DNA of 64,000 bases from Tamarix chinensis. Lineage: Eukaryota > Streptophyta > Magnoliopsida > Caryophyllales > Tamaricaceae. Location of the stretch: contig CM060174.1 of NCBI GenBank assembly GCA_030549775.1, positions 40,653,086 to 40,717,085 of the forward strand, in the 5' to 3' direction. How positions within the stretch are numbered: position 1 is the stretch's first letter; the number at the start of each line of letters is the position of its first letter. Below the pieces are notes generated by a model. It did no database searches. It worked only from the letters and a program-made list of their open reading frames with translations, and was not told the DNA's origin. The position numbers and the translations under genes are program-made. Shown here piece by piece: positions 4,657 through 50,227 of this stretch.

Positions 4657-5049
4657 TGAAATACCCCAAAACCTAATTTTAAGAATTATAGCTAATTTAG
4701 GATTTATTTAGAAATTTATTAAATAAAATATTTTTATTAAAATAAAATGGAATTAATTAGGGCTATTCAAAAAGAAAATAATAAATATTTTTATTAGAAA
4801 ATTTTAGTATTTTAGCTAACTAAGGATTTTATTTTGGAAATAATTAAATAAATTATTTTATTTAAAATAAGAAGGAGAAAATAGTTTCAAATTATTATTA
4901 ATATTGTAAATAATTTAATTGGAGGAAATTAGAGTGATTTGCTAATTAAAATGAAATTTATGAAAAATCTTTCAAAAATCTTAAATTTGTCTAAAAAGGG
5001 ATTTAAATATTATTATTTTTAAATATCCCAAATATTCAAATTAATTTAA

Positions 5050-6330
5050 TGATCCCAACCCTCCTATTTTTCTTTTCACTTTTTCCTTTTTCTTTCTTTC
5101 TTTCTTTCTTTTTCTTTTTCTTTTTCTTTTTCTCTTCTTTTTCCCCATTTGGGCCTGCCCTCTCTCGTGGCCCGTTTCCTCTTTTCTTTTTTCTTCTTCG
5201 GCGACCTCAGCTACCCCAACGACCCAGTCCCCCTCCCTCCTTCCTTGCCTTTGGCGCGACCTAACCTGCGCGACCGACCCCTTTGCCTTCCCCTCTTGCG
5301 TGACACTTTCCTTCATTTGCTATTGAAACGCATCGTTTGATTTAAACAAAAAAATTAGCCCGTCGCCCGGCTGGTCTCCCTCTTCTTTTCTTCCTCAAAC
5401 TGCCACTCTAGCCCCCATCTTCTTCTTCCTCCCCAGCCCATCAACCACTTGCAACTCCGTCGACTGCAACCTCCAAAAATGACACTGCCGATCTCGCCGT
5501 TTGATCGGCCATTTCTCCTCTATTTTTATTGCTGATCCATCCACCCCGTCGTCCAACCACTTCTCCCCCTCTTCTTGCACAATCTCCTCTCTCTCTCCTA
5601 TGCACAACTTCAACCATTTGAATTTTTTGTTGGCCAACCGTTACCAGCCGGTGCCTTGACCCCCTACCATATCCTCTCTTCTTCCCTTTGACCTTATCTC
5701 CTCCTTAGGCATATAAATACCCCTTACCAACCCTAGAGTCCAATTTTATTTTTCGAACCCAAGAAATCATTCCTTATGCGCTGCCTTCCCTTTAGACGCC
5801 GTTGCCGCCACCATCGACCAACGTCGCCACCCACTTCACCTACCTAATCCTTCCCTGCATTGTCCTCTACCCAACTAAACCTCCCATATCCCTTGATTTT
5901 CTTGCACAAGCCACCATAGCTGTGTAAAGTTTGCTTCCCAATCAACCTATTCCTCCACCTCCGCCACCCTTCGAACCACGTTTAACCACCAATCCCGCCA
6001 CTACCATTGCCACCTACACCTTCCAACCTATTCTATAGACCACCCTCCGCCTTCTCCTACCTTTCTTTTCCTCTAACTCCCTCTCCTTCTCTCTTTTTCT
6101 TCTTCTTCGCCATTCGACCACCACCGCCACCGCCGTGTGCTGCCACCGTCATTCTGCTCCTCTCCTTCTAGGTAACCATAATCACCTCAACCCCCACCTT
6201 CATTCTACCTCTCTTTTTCTCAGCATTCAACTTTTCCTCTTTTCTTCTCTTTTTTGGGTCACTGCCGCCACCGCCGTGCACTACTGCCAGTGTTGCCTGT
6301 CACCACCAGCCTAAGGTTGAACTCTAACCC
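5050..6330 (+). other. GC/CT-rich promoter-leader segment of the LTR
   Basis: Strongly pyrimidine-rich on the sense strand, with CCGCCACC-type runs and a (TTTC)n/(CTTTTT)n tract at 5090-5140. The same strand-biased island lies at the same place in the LTRs at 21260-22020, 29440-30540, 34030-34440, 43380-44680 and 47180-48330. Short open frames here (63-91 codons) are products of the composition and are not called as genes. Confidence 0.6.
5712..5719 (+). promoter_or_regulatory. TATA box of the solo LTR
   Basis: TATAAATA in the context CCTTAGGCATATAAATACCC, 1055 bases from the LTR start. The minus-strand LTR 39836-44992 has the nearly identical context CCTTAGCCTATAAATACACC about 1025 bases from its start. 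Conservation between two copies supports the retroelement Pol II promoter, with transcription expected about 30 bases downstream. Confidence 0.7.
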
Positions 6331-6389
6331 CCTAAACCCTTTTTCACTATTTATTCAAGCCTTAATCTATTTTATTTCATTTATTCATA

Positions 6390-6450
6390 ATATTTACTAA
6401 TAATACTACTACTACTATTATTATTACTATTATTAATGTTATTCTTAATG

Positions 6451-6481
<31 letters not shown>

Positions 6482-6960
6482 TTTTATTATTATTTCTATT
6501 AAGGGTGGAAGCCCTACTATATTTTTATTTCGATTTTATTATTATTATTCGTATTTTTTCTATTATTACTACTATTATTATTAATATGTGATTATTATTA
6601 TTATTACTATTTTAAAATTATTATTATTATTATTCCATTATTATTATTACAACTATTTTACTATTAGTGTTGCTATTATAATTATGAGTGTTTTGTGACT
6701 ATTATTATTATTATTATTATTATTATTTTCAATGTTAGTATTATTATTTTATATAAGGCTGAAACCCTATTGTGCCTGTTTTGAATTATAGTAGTAGTAT
6801 TATAAATATGAAGTCTTATTATTATTAATATTATTAATACTTTTATCATTAGCATTTATTATTATTATTAGTGTTATTATTATTATTATTGTTATTATTA
6901 TTATTATTATTTATTAAGTTTATTATTATTTAATATAGGGTCAAAACCCTACTTCATTTA
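6390..6960 (+). repeat. ATT/TTA microsatellite field with interspersed spacer motif
   Basis: Runs of TTA repeats are separated by a spacer of the form AGGGT..AA.CCCTA at about 6505, 6755 and 6940, so the field has a coarse higher-order period near 200 bases. It continues at 9580-9780 beyond the hAT insertion. The related LTR 39836-44992 has the complementary AAT field at the same position (42720-43360), so this belongs to the LTR subfamily. Confidence 0.75.
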
Positions 6961-6983
6961 ACTTCAATTATTATCATTATTAC

Positions 6984-7913
6984 TAGAGTCGGTAAAAGTT
7001 GACCCGACCCTAAAAATCTGATGAATATCGACTCGATCCGCCCGAAATCAGGTCCGATTTTATCCGAGTAATTAAAATCCTGAAACCTATCTGACCCGAT
7101 CCGATACATATCCGATATCCAATATAACCCAAGAAATCATAAGCTCGAAATAAACCCGACCTGACCAGCTATTTACCTGAAATCTAATATAACCCGAAAA
7201 ACTATAAATCCAAAATGACCCGACCCGATCTATTATTTATCTGAAATCTGATATTATATGAAAAATTATAAATCTATAAATATTCAACTTGGGACTACCC
7301 AAATAACCTATAACTCAAAATTTTTAAAACTTTAGAAAACATGAAATAATATAGATGTGCAACTAATCCATACTAGCATTTACATCAAAATCTAGAAACA
7401 ATATACTTTCATAAAATTTATATCACTTATGTTTATACAAATACAATATCCATTGATACCAATAGAAATAAAAGTAGAAAAAAAAAAGAAAAACACTATG
7501 CCATTTAAATATTAGTTCACTTCCATTATTCCATCTAGTACCATAAGATAATAATAGTGCGGCCTTGAACACTATATGTTAGTAGTATCTATACGACCAT
7601 ACCTTGCAATATAGCACCTACAACATAAAAAAAAAAGTAGGAAAAATCTAGAGTGAGAATGTTAGTTATTTATTATAAAAATTGAAGATTAATATTTTTT
7701 TATTACATCAACAGTGTTAAATAGTAAGAAGTCAATATTAGTTGGTCTTTTGTCAATAATAGTCATTATTACTTACTTTATCTAATTTTTATCTTATTTA
7801 TCTTGATATGATCTAATCAAAATATATAATAAAAAAAAGTAATATGTTGTTATTATTATTTTTGCCATAATTGATATTCATTGATTACTATTATTATTGT
7901 TATCATTATTTTT

Positions 7914-7958
<45 letters not shown>

Positions 7959-9579
7959 TTATTAAAATTATGTTGATATGATGTGATCAATCTATTTTAA
8001 AAATAATATGAGAAGTAGAACCTTAGAAGTCTTCATTTGTTATCAATTATCAATGACTATTATAAGTTAATATCATGTAAGGAGTGTATAAGATATAAAT
8101 ATAATATAAACTTAAAATAATACTAGATGATGGAAACCTATTAGGGTTTCTCGAAAGGATCGAAAGATTAATCGAGCACAATGTTCGATTCGCCGGTTCA
8201 GCCTAAGGAACAACTCCAAAGGAAGACCAAAAGATTCAGAGGCACAGTTTGTACAACGGTAACTGAAATTTGAAGAGTGAATGATCTAGATCGATCAAAG
8301 GTGAGAGAGCAGATTCAGAAGAACGAGCAAATGAGAGAATCGCCGAGAGAGAGAGAGACAAGTCGCGAGAGAAGAATCGAGATTCAGCCAAAAAAGTCAA
8401 TCAATAATAATCGTCGTTACTGTACATATTTGACCCAGCTATATATAGGCATATTACAGACCGTATGTCGATGTACAAAATACACAATACAGACCTTCTA
8501 ATACACGCTATACTTACAACGGGAAGGCCGAATGGCCTGCTTGTATTGGGCCACAAAATAGTCGATCAGCCCAATCGAACCCCACAATAAAAATGTCCCA
8601 AATACAATTAAGTTTGGGACTTAATTCCCATCAGCTAAAATAACACTTTAGCTAATCATGGCTATTAAGGATTGATTAATCCACAATCCATCTAGTCCAA
8701 ATTAAGGACCGGGTGGCGGATTATACAACCGACCTAATTTCCATTAGCTAATTTCGACCGGCGAATGCATCATATGGGATTACAATTTATTAACAAAAAT
8801 TTACATAATCGGCACACTTCAAATACATAATCTGCATATCCCAGCAACTGCATCCAAAGTTCCACAGAATCCATATGCTGCATTACACTCCTATTTATTC
8901 ACCAAATAAGACAAACAATTATAAGTAAATAATTCACAACATCTTTTGAAATTAACTAAATATAAATTCTTAAGATTCACATCACTAGAACTCAATATGA
9001 CCAAGCTAATAATGGAGTTGAATTATAAGTCATACCTTACCATAAAAAGAAAAGTGATATGACTTGAAAACTTTTAAATTTGAAACATCAGATACATCTC
9101 CAAAGATAAAATAATAACAAAAAATTCTAAGGCACCAAAACAATTAATATAATAATTCACTTTTAATTGAATAAGATAAATTAAAATAAATGATCTCAAA
9201 ATAATTAGCTTTTAATAATATCTTGGAATAAAAAGGAAGAAAGAAAATGATACAAGCACGGCTCAACTATGAAATGACCTAAATCCAATCTAAATTCGAC
9301 CCGAAAATATAATAATTCAAACTCAACCAAGCCCGATCCGAACCTGAACCGAAATTAGAACAACCCAAATTTACCTGAATCCGAGTCCATCCAATCTTAA
9401 GCAGACCTGACCCAAAAGCTTAGAATGACCCAAGATTATCCGATACTGAGTTGATCCAAATCAAACCCAACCTAGCCCGACTCGACAAAATGATCCGAAA
9501 TTATCCGAAACCGATATGACCCGATTATCATGTTACCCGATCCGATAGTGACCTGACCCGCCTGATTGCCAGCTCTAAT
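6984..9579. mobile_element. Non-autonomous hAT-type DNA transposon
   Basis: The left end begins TAGAGTCGGTAAAAGTTGAC. The right end, read inward on the minus strand, begins TAGAGCTGGCAATCAGGCGG, so the tips are imperfect inverted repeats of the TAGRGNTGGCAA hAT style. Both ends are flanked by ATTATTAC (6976-6983 and 9580-9587), an exact 8-bp duplication as expected for hAT. Both subterminal zones are dense in ACCCGA/ATCCGA motifs, typical of transposase-binding regions. No transposase frame is present; the longest frame is 74 codons (8277-8501). Caution: the target is ATT-rich, which raises the chance of a fortuitous match. Confidence 0.7.
8128..8633 (-). repeat. Possible nested solo LTR or TRIM-like unit
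   Basis: A block of about 506 bases, richer in GC and CG than its AT-rich hAT host. It starts TGATGGAAACC and ends TTCCCATCA, which gives TG..CA ends and a short terminal inverted repeat. A TATATATAGG promoter-like box lies near 8450. The flanks CTAGA and GCTAA do not make a clean duplication, so the boundary is uncertain. It may instead be part of the captured interior of the hAT element. Confidence 0.3.
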
Positions 9580-10299
9580 TATTACTATTACCATTATGAT
9601 TACTACTATTTTTGCAATATTATTATGGTTTTTATCATTATTGTTATTTTTATTAGGGTAAAGTCTTCAACCTTATATTATCAAATTTTATAATATTACT
9701 ATTATTTCTTATATCTTTAGCAAAGTTAGTAATTATTTAATGTCATTATTACTAATATGTTATTATTTTATTAAAAACTTAGTTTTAGAATAAATTAGGA
9801 GTAATAGTATTTTTGGTAGGATGGAATCTAATTGTAGTTTGTTCCTCATATAGGTGAGACTAGTCAAAGCCCTAAGGAGGCGTAGGAGCATGCTCCAAGA
9901 CCGGTGTCATTTTAGGTAAGCGTGTTACCAAGGCCTTATGTGTGTTTATGTGCAGTATATGTTTTGAATGCTTTATATTCTATATTTATCATTATAATTA
10001 TTTCATATGTGGTATGATGTGGAGTTCAAGTATATTTTTTGTGTATTTATATGGCATGTGTATTATATATATGTGATGAAATATTGTGGTATGTGATGAT
10101 ATGTGTTGTGACCCTGTAAGACATGCATGTGAGGATGTTAATGTTGTTTGTGAAGGGGAAAGGATGGAAAAGAAGAATGGGGAAGGAAGTTGACCAAGGG
10201 AAGTAAGTTGGCTAAAAGGGGAACAATTTTACCAAAGGGGAAAAGTTGACCAACAGATGTGAGTTGACCTTAGTATTTTAATGATCCATGAGTAGAAGA

Positions 10300-10920
10300 A
10301 TAAAATGGAAATTTATGGTTTTGTATGAGATAATATAATTTAGGGTTTTTTTATGGGAGAATCTACTTTATGGTTTTGTGTGCGAGAATCTAATTTATGG
10401 TTTTATATGGAAGAATCTAATCTATGGATTTGTATGGGAGTATCGAATTTATAGTGTTACATGGGAGAATCTAAACTAGGGTTTGATATGGACATAAGGT
10501 TTTGCATGGCAGATTCTATGGTGTTGCATGGGAGGATCTAACCTAGGATTTTGTATGGATGGTATCTAGGGTTTGCATGGTTGAATCTAAGGTTTCACGT
10601 GAGAGTTTTAGGGTTTGCGTGAAAAAGTTTGAAGGTTTACATGGGGAGGTTAGCGTCTGTATGGGAGTAAAGTTTACATATGAAAAGTTAACTTGGGATG
10701 TAAGGAAGGTAATAGAAGAGTTATTTGCGTGTTTGGAAGTTTTGGGTAAAAAATAGTATGTAGGACATTATAAGGGTATGGAGGAGACCGAGTTATGGTT
10801 TGGAGTGATTAACTATGGGTTGTTGTGATTAACTAGGGTTTGGAATGGCTAATAGGGTTTGGTGTGGTTAACTAGGGTTTTGATATGGCTAACTAGGGTT
10901 CGGTGGTAACATGTGTGTAC
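10300..10920 (+). repeat. Degenerate tandem array, about 30-bp unit
   Basis: Repeated units of the type GGTTTTGTATGGGAGAATCT, later shortening to GGTTTGGNNTGGNTAACTAG. It lies within the putative LTR intron. A related array (TTTGTATGGTGGTATTAGGG read on the minus strand) sits at the same place in LTR 39836-44992. The 65-codon frame at 10559 is an artefact of the array. Confidence 0.65.
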
Positions 10921-11304
10921 TTGGGGAGTAAAGTATGATGATGAATATGGGATCGATGGTTGTAAAAAATGGAGTGTCAAAATGATTTGGGTTGTGTGAG
11001 GTGGAGTAGGATGGGACACCTAGGCCTAAATTAGGGTTTCTACGAAAAACCTAGAGTAAGGAAGTAAGTGGACTTGGAGGTGCATAGTAGTGGGCCTTGA
11101 ACTACATATTTTAGTGTTGGAATTCTAGTATGAATTTGAGTATAAGGAAAAGGTTGTTGGGCAATATAGGAGGTGCACGCTTCTCATGGTATAATACGGA
11201 TTGGTTGGAGGATAAGTGTAGAGGGAGTGATTCATGCTTGTCTAGGGTGAAAGTTTCTAAATAAGACATTGTAATAAATTAATCATTTAAAGTGGAAGAT
11301 TGTT

Positions 11305-11535
11305 GAGCCAGGCCAAGACCGATCCACCGGTGAATAATAGTGGTTAGGGTATAATGTCCTATATGTGATCAGTCCACCGGTAATAATAGTGGTCTTTATG
11401 CCCTGCGTATTTCCGGTCCACCGGCTATAATAATGGTTAGGAGCTTTATGCCCTGTGTTTTTCGGTCCATTAGTTATAATAGTGGTAAGGAGCTATGTGC
11501 CCTATATGTATCCAGTCCACCGGCTATAATAGTGG
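11305..11535 (+). repeat. CCGGTCCACCGG repeat cluster
   Basis: Five units about 50 bp apart, of the form GGTCCACCGGCTATAATAGT. The complementary unit occurs in most other giant LTRs here, always just upstream of the acceptor-like site. The core CCGGT-CC-ACCGG is an inverted repeat with a 2-bp centre. Confidence 0.8.
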
Positions 11536-12275
11536 GGTTCCTGTACTCCCATAGATTTGATAAAAAGCATGGTGCGAATCGATTTTTGATCAGAGATTAA
11601 TTAAGTAATTAATTCGGATTATAAATGGAATTTTATTTATCTACTCATATGACTGTTTGATATTACGTTATCATATTGGACTATATGCTTCTTTATTTTT
11701 TCTCCATTATTTATGTGATTTTATGTGTTGGCCTTAGTGCATGGTTACCTTGCTCAGTAAGTAGCATACTGATCACCCTTTATGGGTGCTGCTCATTCCC
11801 ACGAGTAATAGGCACTTCTGACTTTGTGTAGGTTAGTGAGGCATCAGGAAGAGATGTATGTTGAGTATTTTTGGCTCCAAGTTCTAGAGTAGTGTGGCCA
11901 GATTCACTCTTCTTATTATTTTATCTTCTTCTGCTATTTCCTTTTTATCGGATTTACTCTCTTATGATTTATTACTTTTATTTTGTATTTTAAAATGAAT
12001 CTTTTATCGGTTGTAAGTATATCTTTCTTTTAAATATGAATTACAATCCTTTACGCATACTCTGATCTTTGGTGTTATGATCCTTCTAGTTCTTTCATGA
12101 ATTCTTGGTTTAAGTTTAATGTTAATCTTTTCTCAGCCTTATCACTTGGTACTGAAATGGTTGGAGCAAACTGGTTTGGTACTAAGTGTGGTGGTGACAT
12201 CCCCAGAATTTATATGTTTCTAATTTTAAATTCTTCCTTTTTAAAAAACAATTTAGTGAATTTTGGTGTATTACA

Positions 12276-12973
12276 GTGTTTACACTAAAAAATTCTACCA
12301 TTGATAATGATTAACCATAGGCTTTTCACTTTTCTCTATTATCCTCTATTTATAAACTAAGGCATACGAAAATCAAGAGGTATTTTATTTGGTTGTAATG
12401 GGGCTATAGGTGAAGGTCAAAAAATTCTAGGATTGTGGTGCAACATCTATCACTAATGAAGCACCCAATTTCCACAATTCCAAATCTTTTTTATTCTCAA
12501 CTTCACCATTTCTTCAATGAATTTTCTACCTCTAATAATCACCTTATATACTACTGACATCTACTATAATTCTATTATGTTATTGTTTTTTACTTGAGCC
12601 ATGTTTCACCAAGTAGGTGCATTTTACACTCCACCCTACTCGCCACATGGATTTAGTGCTTTTATAATCCATGTGTGTGTGTGTATTACTTTCTTTCTTT
12701 ATTTATAATAACTCTATTCACTACAAAACAAAAAAAACTAACACACCACCATGCTTAGATTTTCAACATCATAAACAACACATTACCAAATTGTACTATA
12801 CTAAAGACAAACTAGGTTAAATATCTAGAAAATAGGCTTAAAAGCTCAACATAATTAGATAAGAAAAAAAATATAATAGGTAGTTTATTTAGCTAAGTAG
12901 TTTACAAGAAGAAACTTGTGCCTCAATCATCTTAACGTATGTAATAGTTTCATGTATACCTGAAGAGAATAAT
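12276..12973. other. Unassigned AT-rich spacer
   Basis: Starts with the GTGTT target duplication and runs to the CRM-like element. It contains a short TG microsatellite near 12673. No coding or RNA feature recognised. Confidence 0.5.
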
Positions 12974-18697: not shown

Positions 18698-19269
18698 AAT
18701 ATTGACAAGTTATATTATAACACCCCAATTTTTACTACTGAAAAATTTCATTTTGTAGTAGAAGTAATTACATAAAATAGTGGAGGTTACAGCCGTGATC
18801 AACATAATACTGGCTCAGCAACCATCTTTACATCAATCTCAAGGCTAAAACATTTAAGGTAATACAAGAAAATTATAAAACAAAATAAAATTTATAGTAC
18901 AATACTGAATTTAACATTACAAAATACAAAAAGGGGACACCATTGACTAAGAGTCAAAAAAGAGTATCCAGTTAAATTTATAAACCGGATAACAAATACT
19001 CTTCACCCAACCCCAACATAAATGAAGTCACTCATCCCCACATAAGGTTTCATAGGCTGTAAAATTATCTAACTGATCTTTTGAGACTTGCACATAAGAT
19101 TTAGGGCCTTTTTCTCTTGATAATGAGCAGTACCCATAAAATAGGTAGTGAGTACGCTATTTACAAAGTAAGGGAATAATACTATCAAAATAGGGATATA
19201 AATAGCACATGATTTCACATTAGATAATAAGGGAATAACCAAATAAATGAAACATCTCATAGGATAGAA

Positions 19270-19745
19270 TAGACCACATTGAGTGCAGGAACCCCACTAT
19301 TCTTAAATCCATTTTCCTTTTTTTATATACATTGAGTGCAGGAACCCCACTATTCTTAAATCAATGGAATGATCTAAAAATCTTCTCGAGGACAACACAT
19401 AAGAGCCACTATTCTTTCCAATGGAATGAAGATTAAAAACATCCTCTCTGGAAAAAAATGCTCTCGACCCACTATTCTCCCTAGTGGAATGGGATACATA
19501 CATATACATAGAAAACTATATCATCTTGGTCCTAACTCACTTATTATTCTCCTGTAAATCATTAGCATTTTTCCATAAGTTATAACGATAAATTTTCATT
19601 TCATGATGAGTAAGGACCCCACTATTCTTAATTCAGTGGAACAGATTGAAGCACTTTCTCAGGGAAAATTTCTCCTGAGCCACTATTCTCTTTGGTTGAA
19701 TAGGATACATACATACATACATATATATATATATAGATAGATAGA
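19270..19745 (-). repeat. Degenerate CCACTATTCT repeat cluster and TA/TAGA microsatellite
   Basis: About six copies of CCACTATTCTT..CAGTGGAA, the eroded form of the CCACTATTATA-CCGGTGG unit, at irregular spacing. A TACA/TA/TAGA microsatellite follows at 19705-19745. The 68-codon frame at 19303-19509 falls inside the repeat and is not a gene. Confidence 0.6.
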
Positions 19746-20470
19746 CCACATTGGCCTTGCTCACGTACTGTTTCACTTTAAGTAATTAGTATCTTATTCA
19801 AGATTGATTCTCAAGCATAGGACATATTAAAAACAGATATGCATATAGCATAGGTTTAAGTCTTAAGTTCTTTCAAACCCTAATTACACACCCATTAGTA
19901 TTCATTATCTTATATTGATTAATTCACAAACCTTATATTATATCATCTCCAAATGCCCTCATTTTTATCATACCCAACATGCATGATCTAATTCCCATAA
20001 TTATACTTTAATAATCTCATTCCCAATATGTTAATCACGATAATGTCCAAGACCCAAATTCCATAGAACTGTCATAACACCTCCCATGAACTTTTTATGA
20101 ATGTTAATCCCAATAGATAACCTATAAAACTTAAACATAGAATAATGGTATTATCATTACAAGATAGATTGTCCCAAATTAGCCATTAAATCATTTAATA
20201 ATCCCAGATAACAATAATACTTCCATGAATTTCTCATGCTATTGTTATTGTATTTTAAACATCCTAACACATAAATATCAAAATTTCCTTATTATCCCAT
20301 AATGACCTAGTTATGCATAACAAAAAATAAAAACCTTTATTTTTCCACACATATTATTTTCCAAGTTCATAATTAGTCATCATACCTCATGAGAATTCAA
20401 GTCCATTTATCAAACTCACTTAGCTAAAATTTTATACCTTAACATATATATATTTTCACAAGTATGGCAT

Positions 20471-20760
20471 TATCACAACAAAATAATGATGGTACCTCTT
20501 GCCCATTCTTACTTTCTTTTAATAATGTAATAGCCTTAGGTCCATATTTCATGCCATATGACATATTTTCACAAATATGACATTATCACTTCAAAATATT
20601 AATGGTACCTCTTACCTATTCTTACTTTCCTTCAATAACATAATATTCGTAAACCTGTATTTCATACCATAATATATAATTCCCCAAACATTTCATTATC
20701 ACAAAAAAATATAACGAAATGGTACTTCTCACCAATTCTTACTTTCTTCCAACATAACAT
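20471..20760 (-). repeat. Three tandem copies of a 112-118 bp unit
   Basis: The segment GGTACCTCTTNCC.ATTCTTACTTTC recurs at 20491, 20603 and 20721. The sister LTR 46961-50227 has only one recognisable copy (near 48605), so the amplification is specific to this copy. Confidence 0.65.
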
Positions 20761-31439: not shown

Positions 31440-32607
31440 CTTGCACGAGAGGTCTGCTCCCCACCATCAGTGGATCATCACAGGACCCATTCAACCAAGG
31501 TAGCATCAGTACGGGTCCGGTACTGAGTAAATCAAGACAACCCAACTCAGGGAAGGAAACATGAAACACATAAGATATGAAAGACTATAGCTTACAATTC
31601 TTATACTCAATTATACATGTATTACATACAATAAAACATAGGATTATCGATTCATGCTCACAGGTACATTACTAGACATGACAGCACATAAGATACCAGT
31701 GTACAAGAAATCACGATCGCATGCTAAGTAACACCAATCAAGCAATCCAATAATAATCATTACTACATCTGGTTTTATTTATTTATGATGAGTTCAAGGA
31801 CCCCACTATTCTTAAACCGGTGGAACGGTCTGAAGCACCTCTCGGGGACAACACACCCGAGCCACTATTAGCATCCGGTGGAACGGATCCTACACCTCTC
31901 AGGGCAAAACGCTCCTGAGCCACTATTCTGAACCAGTGGAACGGCTTGAAGCACCTCTCGGGGACAACACACCTGAGCCACTATTATCATCCGGTGGAAC
32001 GGATCCTACACCTGGTCCTGACTCACGTAATCTTTCACTTTAAATAATTAGTGTCTTATCCATTACTTATCATATTCTTATTCATGATGAGTATAGGGCC
32101 CCACTGTTCTTAATCCGGTGGAACGGACTGAAGCACCTCTCAGGGACAAGTCACCTAAGCCACAATTATCATCCGGTGGAACGGATTCGACACCTCCCAG
32201 AGCAAAACGCTCCTGAGCCACTATTATCTTCCAGTGGAACGGACCCTACACCTCGGCCCAACTCACGTGATCTTCCACTTTAAATGATTAGTATCTTATT
32301 TAATGATTTTAGCCGACCGTAAACCAGGCCCACATAAAATAATTCTATGGCATAAAGATACAGCATAGGGTATCATATAATATCAATCCATACTCAACCA
32401 TTCATATACTCAAATACATACCATATTCAACGTTATACTAACATGCATTGGTATTGGGGCTATGAACTCATACATACATAAAATTTCCACACAGAAAACA
32501 ACATACACTGGACAGGATTAAATGATCAATAAGCATAGTCATCACCTTCCACTCGGAACAGAAATACATCCAGATTCTATCATAAGTAAAGGTAAGTAAT
32601 GACTTAC
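31440..32607 (-). other. Putative intron inside the solo LTR
   Basis: Donor GATTCAG|GTAAGTC at 32607-32606 is a near-perfect plant 5' splice site. The acceptor homologue is TCGTGCAAG at 31441-31440, 472 bases from the LTR end, aligning with CCTATGCAG|GT of the copy at 39836-44992 through the shared context GGGGAGCAGACCTC. Confidence 0.45.
31795..32260 (-). repeat. CCGGTGGAACGG repeat cluster
   Basis: Seven units of CCACTATT.T.ATCCGGTGGAA with spacers CACCTCTCGGGGACAACACA and CACCTC.CAGGGCAAAACGCT. The right arm is AACGG instead of ACCGG, so the dyad is imperfect in this subfamily. Two larger units of about 300 bases each begin after GATGAGT near 31790 and 32090. Confidence 0.8.
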
Positions 32608-34440
32608 CTGAATCTGAAGCTAGCTAAGCAAATTGAGAAAGAGGGAGAGCTATCGAAAGCTCGACAATCCACGGGAAAGTTTTCCTAGATCGCCGATAGA
32701 AATCGGAACTAGGTTAGAAACTATCTTATCAATTAATAATTCACATATTATAACAAAATCAAGACAACGACCTTTCTTGGAAAATGCGTCCAAAACTTAG
32801 GACTCAAGAGCATAGCTCTATTAAGATTTAAGATTTAAATATAAATCAAATGATTTAAAACCCAAACACAGAAATTGATTAGATAAAAGACACACAACAC
32901 AATCAATTTTATAAAACCATCCCCAAAGATTAGGGTTTTTAAATGCCTAAACTACGAATCGACCAAATCACATTTATTATCTCAAATTGGTAGTTTTAAA
33001 ACACAATTAAACTAATTTTAGATAAATCTAGAAAATCAATTTCAACCAAAACAAATCTTTCGCTTAATCAGTTCAAGACGATCCGTTTTCAAAATTAGGG
33101 TTTTAAAGCCTACGACACAAACTTGGGTAATTCAAATCAATTAATTCCAATTAAAGGTATTAGAATACAATTAGGATCATTTCAACTACTTCTATAAATT
33201 TAATTTTAGAAAAACAACTATACATATAACCAATTTCATAATCTCACTTGAAATCTAGGGTTTTAGGCCCAAAAATGCAATTCGGTAAAATTCTATAAAT
33301 TTAATCAAATTGAAAGTTTAGAAATGCAATTAGACACATTTTATAACATATCAAATAATCAATTGATCAAAACCGCTAAAAGAAATACCCAATTAGCACA
33401 ATTAGGGCTTTTGAGCCCGGAATACAAATCCGATCAATTCTTGCTAAAATATATAAATTGACGGTTCGGAAATGTAATTAAATATATTCTAAAGTAAATT
33501 ATATAATCAATTGAATAAAGCGACCCGATTACACAATCCAATTTAGTTCCGCAAGAGATTTGACTTAAAAATCCAATTCCGATTAATTACATATAATTTT
33601 CCCAAATTAACACTTCCGATATGAAATTAAATACATTTCAAACTATATTGTAAAATCAATTGAGCGGAACAACTCAATTACGCAACCCAATTTCAATACA
33701 CACGAATTTTGACCTAGAAATCAAATTCGATTGATTCCGCATAAATTTCTCAAATTGACGGTTCCGACATGAAATTAGATACATTTAAAAACATATTGTA
33801 AAATAAATTTATCCAAAATTGCCAAATTGGACGGATCCGAAAAATTTGGGCATAACCCGGCCTAAAATTCAATTTTCCAAATTATCCACACAAACCATAC
33901 AATTAACATATCCGAATCAATCTTACAGCACATATATACATAATACAACAATTAATTTAGTTTATCACAAGCTAAATCATACCCAATTAATTAAATTAAT
34001 ATTAGGGTTTTCGAAAATTTATACCAAACGAAATTCAACGAATCGGGACAAAGGAAGGCCGGAGGAGCTTCGTCGGAGGTCGGGGGTGGCTCGCCGGTGG
34101 TCGGGAGATGTCGACGATGGCCGGGCAGTGGCGCGAGCTGCGTGGCTCGTCGCTGCAGCGGTCTGCTGCCGCTGCTGCTCCTGCGCGGCTATTGTGCTGC
34201 GTCGGTTGCAGCTGCTGTGGCTGTTGCCTGCTACGGTGGTCGGTCGTGGTGACGAGGGGCAGTAGGTTGGAGGTCGACGACCGACGAAGGAGGAGCAGGG
34301 AGGAGGAGGGGCTGGGGTTTCTGGCGCGGAGAACAGGTCGGGATTAGGGGAGACGGGAAAAGGAAAGAGAAGAGAAAAGGAAAAGGAAGAGGGGGGTCGA
34401 CTGGTTGGGGTAGGGCTGCAGGTTTCTTTTTTTTTAATTT

Positions 34441-34448
34441 TATAAATA
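34441..34448 (-). promoter_or_regulatory. Probable TATA box of the solo LTR
   Basis: TATTTATA on the minus strand, about 850 bases from the LTR start and followed by the CT-rich leader. Its position is similar to the TATA boxes at 5712 and 43970, but the flanks are not conserved. Confidence 0.4.
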
Positions 34449-35301
34449 CACATATAAAATAAACTACTAAAAATTTAAAAATTATTATTGGGAGATTTTA
34501 TCTAAAATTTATTAAACGAAAATTATTTCGTAAGGTTCCGAAGGCTTAAAATCGATATAAAAGCTACATAAAGAATTTCGGAAACATTTTTAGAAAAACT
34601 TACCAACGTACGTAAAAATTTATATTATTTATGGAAATACATTATAAGACCTCGAAAAATCATTTAAAAGCATATAATAAAATATTTAAGTCAAATTCTA
34701 ATAAACCGAGACTAATTTAAATAATTTCCAAAATCGGTTTTCCGCAAACCAAAAATCGTAAAACGGGAGAAAATTAATTTCGGAAAGAAATTCATAAATA
34801 AACTCCGAAAATCTTTTTAATTTAAAACTTCCCGAAGATATTAACGATTTTCGAAAACGAATAAATTTAAAGTCGGAAATATTTTCTACGGATAAAATTA
34901 TTAAAATAACTTTAAATATTTAAATAGAAATTTTATAATTTAAATAATATATTTCGTTAACGAAATATAACTCCAAAATAAATTCGTAATCACACGACGA
35001 AATTATAATCGAAAACGAATCTAAAATATTAAAAATCAAAACACGAGAAAGAATGGAATTACATATTTTTAACCGAAAATCGAAATCATAAGAATATAAT
35101 AAAATCATGGTCGTGAACGAATTTGTCCAGTATGGTTCGCAACGACGATGATTAATTTAATTCAAATATGAATTCGAAATCGTCGATAAATCCATAAAAC
35201 GAATCGAAATTAAAATAATTAAATATTTACATCAACTTACGCTAATAAAATCATTGGGCTTAATAAAATTAGGTTTCAAAAATACGGGGTATTACAGTTG
35301 G

Positions 35302-39574: not shown

Positions 39575-40524
39575 TCCAATGATATATAACATAATAGATG
39601 AATTATCTTTAAAAAATGTAGGATAATTTTTCTTGAATTGAAAACAAAATATGTTAACCAAAGTTGGAAGAACATTGAAGTTGTGGACGTTTTAATGCAA
39701 TATAAAATATGAATTTTTTTATCTTCTCCAAAATAAAATGAATTTTTAAGAAAAACCACTAATTTCTCTATAGAAAAACTCCTAAACTCTCTCAAGATTA
39801 ACCTCACTTGAAGAGAAAAAAAGGAAGATAGAACTTGTAACACCCCCAAATTTCACTCCTGAAAAATTTCGTTTAAATCAAAAGGTTTAGCGGAAGCGGA
39901 AGAATTAAAACCATAAACTTGGGGGTATTACCGCCACACTTAGTACCAGACCGGTTCACTCCTACCATTCCAATACTAAGTGCTAAGGCTAAACTAAACA
40001 ATCATTAAGTAAGAGTCATCAAACATAGGTCCATAGATAACATAGACCATTCACGAAAACCACGAGTCAACAACAGTTAAAATATCGTTTAGGAATACAA
40101 CTTCGAGTACGGTTTCAAAACAATAAGCGTAGTACAAAATATAGCCAAATAAAACAGATCCCAAGGGACCAATATCCGGATCGCCTACTCACTCAAGCCA
40201 AGCCTTCCACCCCACAATTTGTAACCGATCAAACCTGCATAGGAGGTCTGCTCCCCACCATTGGTGGATCATCACAGGACCCATTCAATCAAGGTAGTAT
40301 CAGTACGGGTCCAATACTGAGTAAGGGCGCTGGTGCGCTAAGGCCAAGCATACAATCATACCACATAGCACACATAGCACGCAAGACCCACATTCAACAC
40401 ATAAATAACATACGATGACATGCATGAATAGATCTAATCACTTTCTGATGTCTTATTCTGTATTCTCATTAATGAAATAAGTCCATTTCACGCATTCTTC
40501 AATAATCCATGTGAGCACGGGGAC

Positions 40525-41010
40525 CCCACTATTTTAGTCGGTGGACTGGAAATAAAAACACAAGGCAGAACGCCTCTGACCACTATTCTAACCGGTGGAC
40601 CGGACTGGCCCCGCCTCAACATGGTGTTCCACTGTAAGTACTTAGTATTTTTCCCATGGTTTAACTTATTTACTTTGGGTCTATCGAGCCGAGATCCCCC
40701 ACTATTATAGCCGGTGGTCCGGAAATAACGCACAGTGCTGAAGGCCTCTGACCACTTTTATAGCCGGTGGACCGGAACGAAACGCACAGGGCAAAATGCC
40801 TCTGACCACTATTATAGCCGGTGGACTGGAACGAAACGCACAGGGCAAAATGCCTCTGACCACTATTATAGCCGGTGGACCGGAACGAAACATACAGGGC
40901 AAAATGCCTCTGACCACTATTATAGGCGGTGGACCGGAACGAAACGCACAGGGCAAAATGCCTCTGACCACTATTATAGCCGGTGGACCGGAACGAAACG
41001 CACAAGGCTC
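40525..41010 (-). repeat. 54-bp CCGGTGGACCGG tandem array
   Basis: Core starts at 40711, 40764, 40818, 40872, 40926 and 40980 are 53-54 bases apart, plus two outlying copies near 40538 and 40592. The unit is CCACTATTATAGCCGGTGGA, then CCGG, then a 30-base spacer with AACGCACAGGGCAAAATGCC. Since 54 is divisible by 3, open frames of 81-129 codons appear on both strands with an 18-residue period; these are not genes. Confidence 0.95.
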
Positions 41011-41387
41011 GGCTCAACAGTCTTTTGCTTTACGTTATTAGTGTCTTATCCATGTCTTATTGAATCACACATCACCCTTGACATGCATAAATCATTCTCT
41101 TCATACTGTACTCGACACAACTAATAAAATCTCACATACATAACTACCCTTCAAGCAATGGGTACACATGATAACACTGAACAACTCTAAGCAGCCATAA
41201 CCAACCCTAGTTGTCCACACCAACCGTGGTTAGCCACTCTTTTCCCTATTTTACCATAACCACCATACTTAGCCATTCCCAACCTTAATTGTCCTCAATA
41301 ATCACGATTGGTTACTCCATCCCTACTTAGTCACAATGCCCCAGAGTTAATCACTCCAAACTCTGATTCCATACGATCATTAACTCC

Positions 41388-42135
41388 CATGCAAAACCCT
41401 AATACCACCATACCAACATTAATACCACCATACAACCCATAACACCACCATGTAAACCCTAATACCACCATAAGTCATTAATACCACTATACAATCATTA
41501 ATACCGCCATACGAATATTAATACCACCGTACAAACCCTAATACCACCGTGCAAACCCTAATACCACCATACAAACCCTAATACCACCATACAACATCAT
41601 TACCTCCATAAAATCACAAATACCACCATACAACATTAATACCTCCATAAAATCACAAATACCACCATACAACATTAATACCTCCATAAAATCACAATAC
41701 CACCACACGAACACGAATACCACCATAAGCCATTAATACCACTATAAAATCATTAGTACCACCATGCGAACATTTATGCCACCATACAAACCCTAATACC
41801 ACCATGCAAACCCTAATACCACCATACAAACCCTAATACCACCATACAACATTAATACCTCCATAAATCACAAATACCACCATACAACAGTAATACCTCC
41901 ACAAAAACACAAATACCACCATGCAAACCCTAATACCACCATACAAACCCTAATACCACCATACAACATTAATACCTCCATAAATCACAAATACCACCAT
42001 ATAACAGTAATACCTCTATAAAATCACAATACCACCATACGAACCCGAATACCACCGTAAGCCATTAATACCACTATGAAATCATTAGTATCACCATAGG
42101 ACATTTATGCCACCATACAAACCCTAATACCAACA
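41388..42135 (-). repeat. AATACCACCATACAAACCCT tandem array
   Basis: About 35 degenerate copies of a roughly 20-base unit, with a 48-base higher-order period in 41590-41700 (ACCACCATACAACATTAATA plus CCTCCATAAAATCACAA). CCCTAA strings occur inside units but are not consecutive, so it is not telomeric. Confidence 0.85.
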
Positions 42136-42719
42136 TACAAACTTCAAGACTCCCATGATGGTTCCCAGCTCATATTACCATTTATCTTAACATGCATGTC
42201 CTAGTGGGCCATAACATATTACATCATAAACATCATACATATAAATGTCATGCTCATATCACAGAAGCACATACAACATACCTCAATCTCCAAGCTGCGC
42301 TACACAAAAGACAAGTTATACACAAATCATATAATACATAGCATAGCATGACATACACAACATTCAACACATCCACGTTACACATAGCACAAGGCCATTA
42401 GCTTCGTCCTTACCTAAGGCGACGCCGGGCTTGGAGCACGCTCCTCTAACTCCTTAGGGCTTTGGTCGGGGTTACCTATAAAAGGGGAAAATGCTAAGTA
42501 TTAGTTTCCCTTATAATTACTATCAATCCTCATTCTAGTTTAAGGTTAGGGTTTTTATTACTAAAAAGGGGTTTTATACAAAACTAGGGTTTTTACCTTA
42601 GAATTAGTATACTAAATATTAGTAGTCAAAGTATAGTTATTTATGATACTTATTGTTACACTTATTTTATTAAGCCCATTAGTTCCATTCTTATAATACT
42701 AGTGTCCACTAGTCATAGT

Positions 42720-42728
42720 AAAATAGTG

Positions 42729-42777
<49 letters not shown>

Positions 42778-42975
42778 GACTACTAATAGTGATAATAGTA
42801 ATAGCTAATAATAGTGTCATAGTAATGAGGTTAGGGTTAATGTTAAATGGTATGGTAATAAGGTTCAAGTACTCTTCTTAGTTAACAACCACATGATATT
42901 TGCTAGCTTGAGTTAAGTAACATGGATAAGAACAAAAGTAGTATTATTTTTAACAATAGTGATAAATGTGTTAAG

Positions 42976-43019
<44 letters not shown>

Positions 43020-43232
43020 TAGTACAACCAAGTAAGGTTAAGTAATAATAATAATAACCATAGTAAGGATAATAGAAGTAATAATAGTAATATTATTAAT
43101 AATGTTAATACTAACAATTATAAGAATTAAGATTAAAGTTAAGTATAATAAAAGTTAGGGTTCAAAAGGGATGTTAGTATTAGTAAGAAAATAAGAACAT
43201 TAATAATAAAGACAATAATAATGGTAATAATG

Positions 43233-43274
<42 letters not shown>

Positions 43275-43360
43275 GTAATAAAAATAATAAAATTAATAAT
43301 AATGATGATAATAATAATAAGTATATTAGTATTAATATTAGTAGAAAATAGTAGCAGCTA
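42720..43360 (-). repeat. AAT microsatellite field
   Basis: Three long AAT runs (42729-42777, 42976-43016, 43229-43275) in AT-rich sequence between the TATA-proximal leader and the donor-like site. It corresponds to the ATT field of the plus-strand sister LTR. Confidence 0.85.
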
Positions 43361-43962
43361 TATAAAAAGGGGGTTAGGGTTTGGATGGGTGGAGAACCAC
43401 CTAGGGTTGGTGGTGGTCCGGCGGCGGCGGCGGTGGAGGAGGAAGGGAAGGGAAAAGATCAAGGTGGGGGCTGGATGGCAGGAGGAAAAGAGAAGTTTGA
43501 GGTGGGGGGAGAAGCAGCAGGTGAAGGGGAGTGGAGTGAGGGTGGTGGTGTGGCAAGGGGCGGCGGCGCGCGACGGCGACGGCGGCGACCGAGGGTGGTG
43601 GAGAGAGGTGGAAGATGAGGGAGGAAGGAGGAGAGGGAGGCAAGGGAAGTTGAAGGTAGGGAAAGGTAGAGGGAGGTCTGCTGGGCATTTTGGAGGGTGG
43701 AAGAGGCTCTGGTGGCGGCTGGGCTGGCGGTGGGAGGCGGCGCAAGGGCGGCGAAGGCTGGAAGAGGTGGTTTCGGGCAGTGGACTTTGCACGGCTAGGG
43801 CGGCTTGGTTTTGTCGAGGGAGGTGCAAGGATGACAACGGTGGGAAGCGGTGGTTTCGGCGGTGGCTGGGGGTGGCAGGAATGGCGTCTGTTCTGGCGGC
43901 GGCGGAATAGAGTTTCAGCAAGGTCCAAAGGGAGGGACTTGCTGTGGCTGTTCGGGAGGGTG

Positions 43963-43970
43963 TATTTATA
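43963..43970 (-). promoter_or_regulatory. TATA box of the solo LTR
   Basis: TATAAATA on the minus strand in CCTTAGCCTATAAATACACC, nearly identical to the context at 5712. It is followed by the CT-rich leader of the LTR transcript. Confidence 0.7.
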
Positions 43971-45547
43971 GGCTAAGGGGGAAGGAAAACGACGAAGGGA
44001 GAAGGAGGCGTGCGAGGCAGGTGTGCAGGTGGCCGGCCGGTGGCAGGCGGTGCAGGTCCTGCCATAGCAGGTTGGGTTGGGGAAGGGGAGAGGAAAAAGG
44101 GAAGGAGATGGCACGCGGAAAAGGAGAGAGGGACTTGGTCGGGGTCGAAAAGAGAAAGAAAACGACGGGAGAGAGGCAGGGAAGGGCAGGGGAGGACGGT
44201 CGGCATGCAGAGGTGGCCGGCGATATTCGGGGGTTGCAGGGTCGAGTTGCAGGTCGGGGAGGAAGAAGGAAGGGGAAAGGAGGAGGACCGGCGGTCCAGG
44301 GGAGGAAAAGAAAAGGAAGGGAACCGGCCGGTTCGGCGGCGTTATAAAGTTTTAAAAAAAACGCGGCGTTTTGAGGATTGTGGGAGGAAAACGTCGTGTC
44401 GCGTCGTAGGCTGGCAACAGTCATAAGGTCGTTTAGCGTGACGCGGCGTTTCGACGGTACTGAGGGCAAAACGCAGCGCACGGGCGCACAGGGGTTGGCG
44501 TCGCACGGCATTGGGCCGCGGGCGAGAAGAAGGAAGGAGAGGCAGGGAGGGGGTCTGGGCTGCGCAGGCCGGCCCAGTCCCGGGGGGAGAAGGAAAAGAA
44601 AAAAAAGTTGAGGAGGAAGGAAAAAAAGAGAAAAGAAAGAAGAAAAGGAAAAAGGAAAAATGGAGAAATGATAAAATGGTTGGGTTGGAGGTATTTGGGT
44701 ATTTATTTATTTATATAATTAATTTGTATATATAATTTTAATAATAATTATTTTAATTATAATAATTAGATCCATTTTAAAATTAGTTAGGCTATTTTGG
44801 ATAAATTTCCTTAACCTCCATGCTAATTAGAGAAATACCCAAATTTTCTTCCAATTAAATTCTTTATTATTTTCCTCTTAATCTATCTCAATTAACTCTC
44901 TACATTTTAAGTAAATAAATTTTAATAATCAATTTTCCTAATAATTCCTTATTTGGCCATAATTTCGGAAATTAGGATTTTGGGATATTACAGAACTCGA
45001 AAGAGTTTTGACTCAATGCCCTCATTTCATTTCATTAATTGATTCATCATTTCCCTTCACTACCAAATGTACAAGTATATATACACATAAACATATGAGG
45101 TTGAGCTTAACCTCCATTAATTAATCCCAAATCAACTGGCTTAATTAATCAAGAGTTAAACTAACATACACCCTTATAGTGTATAAATATAACGAGTTAC
45201 AATTACAATTACAAGAAATTACCAAGCTTACATAAAATATCAAAGCTATATAAAATTTAATCATGATAATACATTGATTAATCAAGTAATCAAGCTTCAT
45301 GTCTTATATCTTTGTCTTAGATATAACTTTGTAACCCTATCATTGTCATTGTATTATATGCTAGATATCATAGATGAATTAATCTTCTTACAAACACATG
45401 TAATACTTGCGAGAATCACCTTATGAAAAACTAATAGAATTATTATAAAGGTGTTCAATATTTTTGATAACAATTGGTACCATCTCTAAAAATGCTAAAT
45501 CTTGACATTCAAGATGGGAAGAATGTGATGAAGATGCTCCTATGTCA

Positions 45548-46960: not shown

Positions 46961-49900
46961 TGTAATACACTAAAAACTTACTTAGCCTAATCCCATATCA
47001 TTAGTGCCGTAATTGGATCATAATCTTGAGAAATATTAGTTTAGCCCTAACCGTATTTCTTAATCCCAAAACTTTAACCAAATATAAGACCATGACTCAA
47101 ATAAAGAGTATTTTGTACACCAAAAGAAAACTTATAGCTATTCCTAACTATTTTTGATAATCAAAAATCATCTAAACTAACCCCTAAATCTTTTTCTCTT
47201 TTCCCTTTTCCTTCTCATTTTATTTTCTTTCCTCTCCTTTACACCATGAAACCAAGCTGTAATATTTAAAAAATGTTACAACTTGCACCCTACCCACTTG
47301 CACCATCACCTCTTGTAGACATCAATGACCCATCACCCTACTTCCCTTCTTTTCTTTCTCCTTCTCCTTCTGCTTCCCTATCCCTACCTGACCTGTACAC
47401 CCTATGCACACAGCCTTCCACTTCTCCTTATCCTAATTCAATAAACAAACACAACCATCCCCATTACCTATCATTATTCCAAACACTCAGCCATCTTTTC
47501 CTCTACACCACCCTACACCATTCAGCACACGCCTCCCTCTTCTCTCACTTTTCCCTTCCACAATTCACTCTATAAGCACACATGACTATATATATATATA
47601 TATATATGTATGTATATATATGTATATATGTAAATACACACCACACACTCTTCTTTCCTTCTCATTGTTTTTTCTCCATTGTACCCATTTTGTGTCTGAA
47701 ACTCTACCCGAGACCCCCTCTCCCTTCTCCTTTCTTCTATCATCCTTTCTTCTCCTTCATCCTTCATTGTTCCCCAATTTTTGGCCTACCTACCACCCAT
47801 TCCACAACCACAACCACCACTCACCACCTATTAGCTAGGGGACTAACCACTAAGGTTAACCCAACCATCCCTAGCACCATCACCAACCGTTGCCACATAC
47901 CACCTACTATTTTCCCTTCTTTCTGTCCTTACTTATCTCATGATTACAAATCTCATAGCCTATACACAACCTTAAGCACATACATGTAACACTAAAATTT
48001 CCTACCACACAAACATGCAACCAATTACTTTTTTCCCGTGCACCCTTGCACACTCACACACAACCTAAATGCCCGCCTCTGTGCATCTGTTCATCTTGTG
48101 AAATCTTTGCCCAGTAATAGAGCACAGTCGTGCCTCTTTTCACTACCTAGTCATCTAAGATCCTTTCTCTTAACTAGGGCTGGGCACTTTTAGCTTCCCA
48201 TTCTTGGCCATGCACCATATTTTCACCACCAAACCTTGTTCAAACACCACCAAATTTTTACCATTACTCCACCACACATTCTACTACTTATCCACACATC
48301 CCAAGATTCCATTTGAATATGGTTATTTCTATTTTTACCCTCTTTACTTTAATTTCTTGTTTGATTAAACACTTTGAGCATAACCATGAATTTTATGATT
48401 ATTTAGCTTTGGAGGAGGAAGTCTAGGATTTATGTGCTTAAAGCCTAGTGTCCTAGTTGGTAAGAATCCTATTCAATGTTTATGATTTTTCTGTTAATTT
48501 CTTGTATGGCTATGTGTGTTTTCCATGATATTATTGATATATGATGTAGCATGTGTAGATCATGATATTTTGTGATGATATGAATATTATGTTGAAAGAA
48601 AATAAGAATAGGTGAGAGGTACCATTATAATTTTATTATGATAATGGCATATTTGGAAATACACATATTATATGAAATATGGGCTAAACAAGCTTTGATA
48701 AGTGGACATAAGTATTTTAATGAAGTATGATGATAATTGATAGATTTGGAAAATAATGTGTGTGGTAGGTCCAATATTTTATAAAATAAAGGTTATTATT
48801 GATGCTTAAGTGTAATTAAGTCACTAAGAGATAATAAGGCAAATTTGGTGTTCTATGTATAAGGTGGATTAAAATATGATAGTGATATCATGAAGAGTAC
48901 TTGGAAGTATAATTGTTGTTTTAGGTTTTATAAATGAATTAATGGTTAACTTGGCTATAATAATCTTATTATGATAATATCATTATTCCATGTGTAAAAT
49001 CTATAGGTTATTCGGTAATTGAATATGTTGATAATGTTTGAACCTTCAAGGTTATCTATTAGAATTGGTAATCATTTAAATTTCATGGGAGGTATTATGG
49101 CTAATATATGGAATTAGGGTTTTAGAGATTTCTGTGAGTAAGAAGTTGGAATAAGATTATTAAGATATGTGTATGAAAAAGGAACTAAATAACGCATTTT
49201 GGGTATAATAATAGTGATGATATTTGGAGATGATATAATATAAATTGTGTGGAATAATTAGCATGGGAAATTGAATACTAAAGGGTGTGTAATTAGGGTT
49301 TGAAATGATGTGAGAACTTTGACATATGTGACGTATGTATCTGCCTTATTGTGTTTGATGCCTGAGGATCAATAGTGGCCCGGGAGCATTTTTCCCTAAC
49401 ATGGTGACACCAAGGTGTTGTTTTTATATATAAATCAAATTCGACCAGACAATAGTCGCTCAAGAGCGTTTTGTCCCATGAAGGTGATGTTTTCAGATCT
49501 GTTCAGCTAGAAGATAATAGTAGCTCATGTCTATTGTCCCTAAAAAGGTGTTTTAGGATATTGTGCCTATTTAAGAATAGTGGGGTTCGTACACTCAACG
49601 TATATAAAAAAAATAGAAATTGATTAAGCTTAATAAAGAGATCTAAATCATTTTATATCCTATGAGTTGCTTCATTTATTTCTTTAATCACTTATTACCT
49701 AATGTGAAAGCATGTGCTAATTATATCCCTGTTTGATAGTATTGTTCGCTTTCTCAGTACGTAACAAATTGACCACTAGTTTTATGGTTGCTACTCTTTC
49801 CCACAAGTAAGAGACCCTAATTCTTATGTGTAAGTTTTAGAATATCATGTAGATGATTATTCTACCTATGATTCCTTATGTGGGGATGCGTGATTTCATG

Positions 49901-50227
49901 TATATTAGGGGTTGGGTGAAGAGTAATGTTATCCGGTAGATGTATTTAACCAAATAGCATTTTAGACTCCTAATTAATAGTATACCCTTATTTTTTATTT
50001 TGCGTATTAAAACTTAGAGTTAAACTCCAAACTCATTTTTGTATTATAAATTTCTCTTACATTTCTAATTTCCTTACATTACTTTACTTGTTTTAGCCTT
50101 GTAATTGATGTAAGGATGGTTAAATAAGCCAGATTTATGTCAATTATGATGGTAACATCTAATATTTTACTTATTTACTTCCACTATAAAAATAAAATTT
50201 TTAAGTAGTAAAAATTAAGGTGTTACT
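46961..50227 (+). mobile_element. Tekay-like solo LTR, short subfamily
   Basis: Starts TGTAATACACTAAAAAC and ends AAGGTGTTACT; 3267 bases. Flanks ATGCT and ATGAT differ in one base. Collinear with 18716-22263 in opposite orientation: head, CT-rich leader (47180-48330, with a TA/TG microsatellite 47588-47630), donor-like GTTG|GTAAGA at 48460, eroded repeat cluster 49370-49575, acceptor-like TGTGTAAG at 49833-49834, end. Frames of 72-135 codons at 47273-47989 lie in the CT-rich leader and are not genes. Confidence 0.82.

Follow-up and report, generated by a model that had tools for sequence, protein, structure and literature searches.

In a 64,000-nucleotide stretch of the Tamarix chinensis genome (C4:40653086-40717085, hereafter the window; it occurs at a single place in the 1.32 Gb genome of 28 contigs, which we searched for relatives), several retrotransposon families have very long terminal repeats (LTRs) that appear to hold a gene-like 5' end. 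From the DNA sequence, we consider it likely that these LTRs carry two candidate introns, that RNA spliced at the first of them was reverse transcribed in one family (I/C), and that the second is probably spliced as well, mainly in RNA that is translated. The window is packed with several diverged Ty3/gypsy-like LTR families, 3.3-7.6 kb in length and in both orientations; seven copies (B, C, E, F, H, I, and J) could be placed with their upstream parts, and three (A, D, and G) by their 3' parts only. An earlier note on this DNA had proposed that the leader is spliced inside the LTR, through a single intron running from a donor to an acceptor. The first half of that proposal gains support from the exact absence of an upstream intron in I/C copies and from TATAAATA boxes upstream of the splice sites in H and B; in the second half the splice signals, the homology, and the removal of upstream ATGs stand, but there are two candidate introns rather than one, and it is the short upstream one that is directly evidenced.

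The most direct evidence comes from copy C (18717..22263, minus strand). When C was aligned with 20 genome relatives of copy I (46961..50226, plus strand), one stretch was precisely absent from it, running from GTTATTTC to TTTCGTAG, ~86 nt long, ~50% T, and of the form GT...CTAAC...YAG, while the region of the second intron was kept. The resulting junction (20953..20954, minus strand) reads ...CATTTGACTACG|GTGGTATTC..., at the place where the relatives carry their ~86 nt of GT...CTAAC...AG. This stretch (candidate intron 1) measures 85-88 nt in 11 of the 12 properly parsed rows (92 nt in the other), with 47-52% T in those 11, and in the I/C family it has the makings of a spliceosomal intron, namely GT...AG ends, a branch-point-like site 20-35 nt before the 3' end, and a U-rich sequence. 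The joined CATTTGACTACG|GTGGTATTC sequence was found at 32 genomic places, C included (27 bases, up to 3 mismatches; reversed-pattern control, 0), and the unjoined exon 1-intron 1 sequence at 1331 (reversed control, 1), giving a joined fraction of ~2.3% of the places matched by either pattern. We fetched 10 of the 31 junction loci outside the window, and all 10 were without the stretch, with identical boundaries. The removal is thus exact, and the copies that show it would derive from RNA. Copy I itself retains most of the intron-1 stretch and is without the AG and the first exon-2 bases of its relatives; it (48400-48410, plus strand) and a further copy, L067, each lack, in different ways, ~15 bases where the short exon described next begins.

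The earlier note had the donor near the middle of the LTR end a promoter-proximal exon. Instead, this donor closes a short exon-like block, 52-77 nt long in the window, that itself opens with a branch-point and 3' splice-site signature, CTAAY-N(17-30)-YAG (CTAAT...TATAG| in H and in B, CTAAC...TTTAG| in E, and CTAAC...TCTAG| in F). In H (39836..44992, minus strand; 5.16 kb, from a young multi-copy family), the candidate mini-exon is 62 nt long (42414..42475, minus strand), lies between TATAG| and |GTAAGG, and has a GC fraction of 0.61 vs. 0.29 and 0.37 in its 100-base flanks; the upstream CTAAT (42500..42504, minus strand) is intact in 20/21 rows. The mini-exon of B (9854..9915, plus strand) is likewise 62 nt long, with CTAAT at 9828-9832 and YAG at 9851-9853, and the AG upstream of it is intact in 29/30 rows. 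Those of E (29268-29217, minus strand; CTAAC at 29299-29295) and F (32684-32608, minus strand; 77 nt, after CTAAC ... CTAG) complete the window set. In H, in B, and in the one I-like copy measured (L076), the GC content of the mini-exon exceeds that of both flanks; in E it does so on one side only. With genome relatives included, the signature is present in 20/21 rows of H, 27/30 of B, 14/22 I-like, and 5/9 J-like; for J, CTAAY and YAG|GT stand upstream of the donor in some genome relatives and not in the window copy. Within the window the signature occurs at 4/7 donors vs. 6/158 other GGTAA sites and 354/9616 sites in locally shuffled (Markov) sequence (binomial P 6e-5), a value that falls short of a clean test, to the cost of our reading, given that both the signature and the range of exon lengths were set once several copies had been inspected. 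A block that opens with such a signature and ends at a donor resembles an internal exon; this implies a second, upstream intron, so that the LTR would carry two.

A canonical TATA box, TATAAATA, stands upstream of all these sites in H (43963..43970, minus strand; LTR position 1023) and, aligned to it, in B (5712..5719, plus strand; LTR position 1056). In H it is unchanged in 11/11 of the rows that align there (the window copy plus 10 of 20 fetched loci of the H family), surrounded by C/T-rich and otherwise variable DNA. We infer that transcription of H would start ~30 nt downstream of TATAAATA; with a start just after the box, R would begin ~1 kb from the start of the LTR, and the transcript would include the splice sites. 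A long C/T- and GC-rich stretch also occupies the first part of the LTRs of H (43300-44600, minus strand) and E (29420-30570, minus strand), where it yields spurious open frames; much of the H stretch is just 71-80% identical between copies.

Downstream of the mini-exon, candidate intron 2 would run from the donor to an acceptor near the LTR 3' end. As had been noted earlier, ten copies have an AG-bearing block ~370-470 bases from that end, with TG(C/T)AG|GT in B, D, E, G, and H, an AAG shifted by one base in C, I, and F, CTAG in A, and a degenerate sequence in J (55264). The AG was also said to follow a CTCATTCCCAYRAGTAA block in many copies, which is clear for A, B, D, and I (0-1 mismatch) and weak for C and J (4) and G (5), and there is no match within 5 mismatches at the acceptor sites of E, F, and H. 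The donors first listed are all in place: they are of AG|GTAAG type at 9916 (plus strand) and at 32607, 42413, and 63555 (minus strand), TTG|GTAAG at 48460 (plus strand), and GTAACC in E at 29216 (minus strand), and the donor described as lost at 20886 is one in which C has lost the G of the GT (GT to TT). The matching contexts of B at 9916 and H at 42413 belong to a block that is homologous in the two copies (54% identity around the donor, and 80% over the 50 bases preceding it). The donor block is homologous in I and C by alignment, and in J and I by eye only. No convincing alignment of the E or F donor to the H/B or I/C donor blocks was obtained, and these two were therefore identified by position and signal alone; a candidate homology of the E donor to that of I was dropped, as the alignment was A+T-rich and started 17 bases beyond the I donor.

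So delimited, candidate intron 2 of H (40235..42413, minus strand) is 2179 nt long (GTAAGG ... TATGCAG), contains both minisatellite arrays of that copy, and is followed by a candidate last LTR exon (39836..40234, minus strand) that extends to the LTR 3' terminus, ahead of the primer site. Candidate intron 2 of B (9916..11831, plus strand) is 1916 nt long (GTAAGC ... TGTGTAG), and that of E, on the minus strand, would extend from the GTAACC donor at 29216 to an acceptor before 26204, by position and signal. In F (30968..35296, minus strand) the donor CAG|GTAAGT lies at 32607 and an acceptor-like AG near 31440, and in I donor 2 lies at 48460 and an acceptor-like AG directly before 49834. The J sites are 8 kb apart because another element (55956-62815; LTR pair 55956-56778 / 61971-62815, ~850 bases each and 87% identical) is nested between them, and ~1.43 kb apart without it; J (54856..64000, minus strand, extending past the window) has its donor at 63555. 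The GT...AG ends are conserved, except for the donor of C, which is lost, and the acceptor of J, which is degenerate. Strong second donor-like sites stand just inside candidate intron 2 of H (42281, minus strand; GAG|GTATGT) and of E (29053, minus strand; TAG|GTATGT, directly after AG), and resemble a nested or recursive splice point.

The earlier note placed all tandem arrays between the two sites. This does not hold: after 53 rows had been merged by hand into 34 arrays, 30 of which fall within the seven LTRs having both sites, 15/30 lay inside the donor-acceptor interval and 15/30 outside, with the interval making up 52% of LTR length. The arrays outside have short periods (2-28), except for a 149-base array of F (33465-33809), and with this same exception the larger minisatellites are inside candidate intron 2. 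An array-unit core, GGTCCACCGGCTATAATAGTGG, is common to different families (0-5 mismatches across 20 units of H, E, B, and D); this core, from the arrays at 40699-41008, 26516-26897, 11371-11535, and 23807-23952, is a conserved, partly self-complementary element inside candidate intron 2. Splicing there would also remove many upstream ATGs, which number 37-49 per kb in intron 2 (H, B, E, and I) vs. ~2 in the assumed exon 1 (H and B), or, in H, 107 in candidate intron 2 vs. 9 in candidate exons 1-3 combined. Depletion of upstream ATGs in the exons of H, B, and E was not significant vs. shuffles, and the last exon of copy I has 13 ATGs vs. 7.4 shuffled; of the ATG counts, we draw on the contrast with intron 2 alone.

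A rather unlikely alternative, and the one that survives best, is that intron 1 is spliced while the donor and acceptor of intron 2 go unused, their blocks owing their conservation to something else, and with transcription starting further downstream in many copies. It draws on the fact that no genomic copy without intron 2 came to light, with 0 genomic matches (up to 3 mismatches) to the joined sequence at the two junctions searched, those of H and E, so that exact removal in RNA-derived copies is seen for intron 1 and not for intron 2. No consistent branch point was observed before the acceptors, and the array units inside carry a conserved CTATAATA-like core. Conservation of the sites speaks both ways. 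The donor GT is intact in 72/73 aligned rows of three families (H 21/21, B 30/30, and I-like 21/22, window rows included), GTAAG in 30/30 B and 20/21 H rows, and the H acceptor CAG|GT in 22/22 rows, which represent 20 distinct places (two rows are duplicates from overlapping regions). The rows used for the counts come from 20 fetched H-family regions, 20 of 39 listed I-like places, 8 of 39 listed J-like places, and 29 of 39 listed B-family places together with the window. Because donor-block similarity was the basis for choosing the B, I, and J sets, conservation across the block is biased upwards in them; intron-1 similarity was a further basis for the I-like set, which could hardly include intron-less copies. 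The earlier note had suggested asking whether the GT is more conserved than its surroundings; the GT is indeed almost always intact, but the background is likewise high (mean intact dinucleotide 19.8/21 in H, 26.3/30 in B, and 17.6/22 in I-like rows), and the within-family excess is modest. As the neighbouring bases are mostly conserved too, because the families are young or were fetched by similarity, we rejected within-family conservation by itself as proof of splicing and take it as agreement. Unused sites would nonetheless leave unexplained why the donor lies directly at the end of a block whose start has a 3' splice-site signature, the arrangement needed for an internal exon, and why a TATA box stands upstream of both sites in H and B. 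We therefore favour the reading that intron 2 is probably spliced too, but retained in the RNA that is replicated.

An improbable alternative is that the intron-1-less copies arose by deletion of DNA, through end joining at the GGT shared by both ends of the missing stretch, perhaps with later amplification as one subfamily. A 3-base microhomology deletion would give an identical product, and the AU test does not reject a single intron-less clade at 0.05 (p 0.064), with well-supported branches forcing just 1 change. However, the next GGT, 3 nt downstream, would be equally serviceable to end joining, yet this microhomology-equivalent wrong junction occurs at 0 genomic places vs. 32; random deletions of 60-120 bases matched a GT and the predicted 3' site in 98/240000 draws; and mere deletion does not call for the GT, AG, branch-point-like CTAAC, ~50% T, and typical short-intron length of what was lost. 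On a tree of 31 rows (10 intron-less; intron columns excluded, and row L090 excluded for its own deletion), the intron-less label is scattered like a random one (9 changes vs. a shuffled mean of 8.8), with a single origin in 0% of 200 bootstrap trees. The 3' site had, moreover, been proposed from several families before the absence of the stretch in C was recognised, though the gap was already visible in earlier alignments. The simplest account of the intron-1-less copies is reverse transcription of spliced RNA, an event that probably recurred. That there was no splicing at all, the blocks being splice-site look-alikes conserved for promoter, packaging, or processing functions, is very improbable: the evidence is all from DNA, and short motifs do arise by chance in A+T-rich sequence, as the signature at 6 other GGTAA sites attests, but this would leave unexplained 32 exact GT-AG absences against 0 at the control junction, as well as the joint presence of branch point, YAG, and GTAA in families whose alignment is otherwise poor.

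Further observations weigh against the reading we prefer. I-like genome copies keep the intron-1 GT in 13/20 cases, the branch site (CTAAY) in 17/20, and the YAG in 16/20, weaker than donor 2, although old, dead copies are expected to decay in this way. Only in the I/C family was an exon-1 donor identified, and the H candidate, CTAG|GTGGTT, is weak. TATAAATA is not present at the matching place in E, whose donor may be misassigned; a probe for that donor matched at least 39 further genome places at 98-99%. Finally, the internal-exon signature is absent at three of the seven window donors (I, C, and J), and the genome copies that carry it are not mutually independent.

The families are Ty3/gypsy-type LTR retrotransposons, an assignment made from the gag fragment that follows E and from the structure of one H relative. 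Copy E (25801..30880, minus strand) is followed by a primer site (25798, minus strand; 1 mismatch) and then by a gag fragment (24342..24950, minus strand) that matches PF03732 Retrotrans_gag (5.5e-13) and PF19259 Ty3_capsid (5e-07), both above cut-offs, as expected of a Ty3-type Gag; this is the one gag fragment so identified, and a protein search with it returned 1 relative. An Rfam scan of the window gave 0 matches. Full LTR-retrotransposon structure was found in one H relative, the element C11:61942244-61954301, whose LTRs begin TGTAAT, finish TTACA, measure ~5.1 and 5.4 kb, and differ at 15 positions over 5123 aligned bases, and which has a 5-base target-site duplication (ATTAG), a primer site (GGTATCAGAGC), which we take to be tRNA-Met-like, and a purine tract (AGGGGGTAGTGA). 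Its internal part, 1572 bases, is without long open frames; it is a young, non-autonomous element. Numerous genome copies of H can be aligned to identical end bases (3' end GGGTGTTACA, 5' end TGTAATATCCC), and copy B (4657..12276, plus strand), 7.6 kb as it stands and probably interrupted, is homologous to H in two stretches (B 4809-6931 and 9574-11535). The long LTRs, primer site, and gag would presumably fit the Tekay (Del) chromovirus clade, a suggestion that we do not raise to a claim.

Taken together, the LTR would be laid out as a TATA promoter ~1 kb in (H and B), a C/T-rich exon 1, intron 1, an internal exon of 52-77 nt, a minisatellite-bearing intron 2 of 1.2-3 kb, and a final stretch of ~400 nt up to the primer binding site. 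RNA starting in the 5' LTR would then run through these parts in order, from exon 1 to the final LTR stretch, and on through the primer site and the body of the element. The spliceosome would remove intron 1 from a part of these transcripts, and some RNA would lose both introns. In the I/C family, the intron-1-spliced RNA would serve as a template for reverse transcription, which, in forming LTRs, copies the RNA 5' end into both new LTRs; because both take this region from the RNA 5' end, the resulting LTRs would be without intron 1 exactly. Splicing of intron 2, on the other hand, would occur mainly in RNA that is translated and not replicated, and such confinement would explain that no intron-2-less copy was found. 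More tentatively, and in a form that may well prove wrong, we infer that the two introns could act as a sorting device in which removal of intron 1 is compatible with replication, intron 2 is kept in packaged RNA for signals needed there (e.g. the array units), and RNA without intron 2 is the messenger.

Splice sites within LTRs have precedents. In retroviruses such as HTLV-1 and the foamy viruses, the R region of the LTR contains a splice donor, which follows the transcription start, as would be the case here; their acceptors are far inside the element, whereas here whole introns would lie within the LTR. Among plants, BARE1 of barley is a Ty1/copia element and so belongs to a different superfamily from Ty3/gypsy. 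In the available text on BARE1, an intron-bearing transcript pool exists beside a separate, replicated one, and the spliced RNA is translated and not replicated; its intron, of 104 nt and just beyond the end of gag, alters which protein is made (PMC3735527). BARE1 is thus a plant LTR retrotransposon with intron-bearing transcripts and a precedent for an intron 2 spliced in translated RNA; it differs in that here both candidate introns are in non-coding LTR and intron-1-less genomic copies exist. Ogre elements (Ty3/gypsy, Tat lineage), as far as the accessible parts of the sources describe them, offer a partly spliced intron within the same superfamily (PMC6317226, PMC12786077). The EVADE and shGAG isoforms of plant Ty1/copia elements illustrate alternative splicing that sorts transcripts by use, with introns inside coding sequence, unlike the candidate introns here; the same sources, as far as they are available, describe a sunflower survey with no Tekay element among its expressed set (PMC12786077, PMC7730604). 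In these papers, to the extent of their accessible text, the introns of plant LTR elements are placed in or between coding regions (PMC3735527, PMC6317226, PMC12786077, PMC7730604), and no plant LTR with an intron inside it was found in the literature searched, whose coverage of subscription papers is incomplete and which is no proof of novelty.

Spliced plant retrotransposons are already known, then, and the new aspect would be introns inside the LTR itself. If the account given here is true, a multi-exon leader would alter where the promoter, R, and U5 are placed in such elements, and would offer a reason for very long, minisatellite-bearing LTRs. The intron-less genomic copies would form a natural record of splicing that can be counted without RNA, and the old question of how one transcript serves as both messenger and replication template could be tested by comparing the introns that are missing from genomic copies. 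Should the tentative sorting reading also be true, translated and replicated RNA would be kept apart by splicing inside the LTR, and partially spliced members of the replicated pool would survive as fossils in the form of genomic copies.

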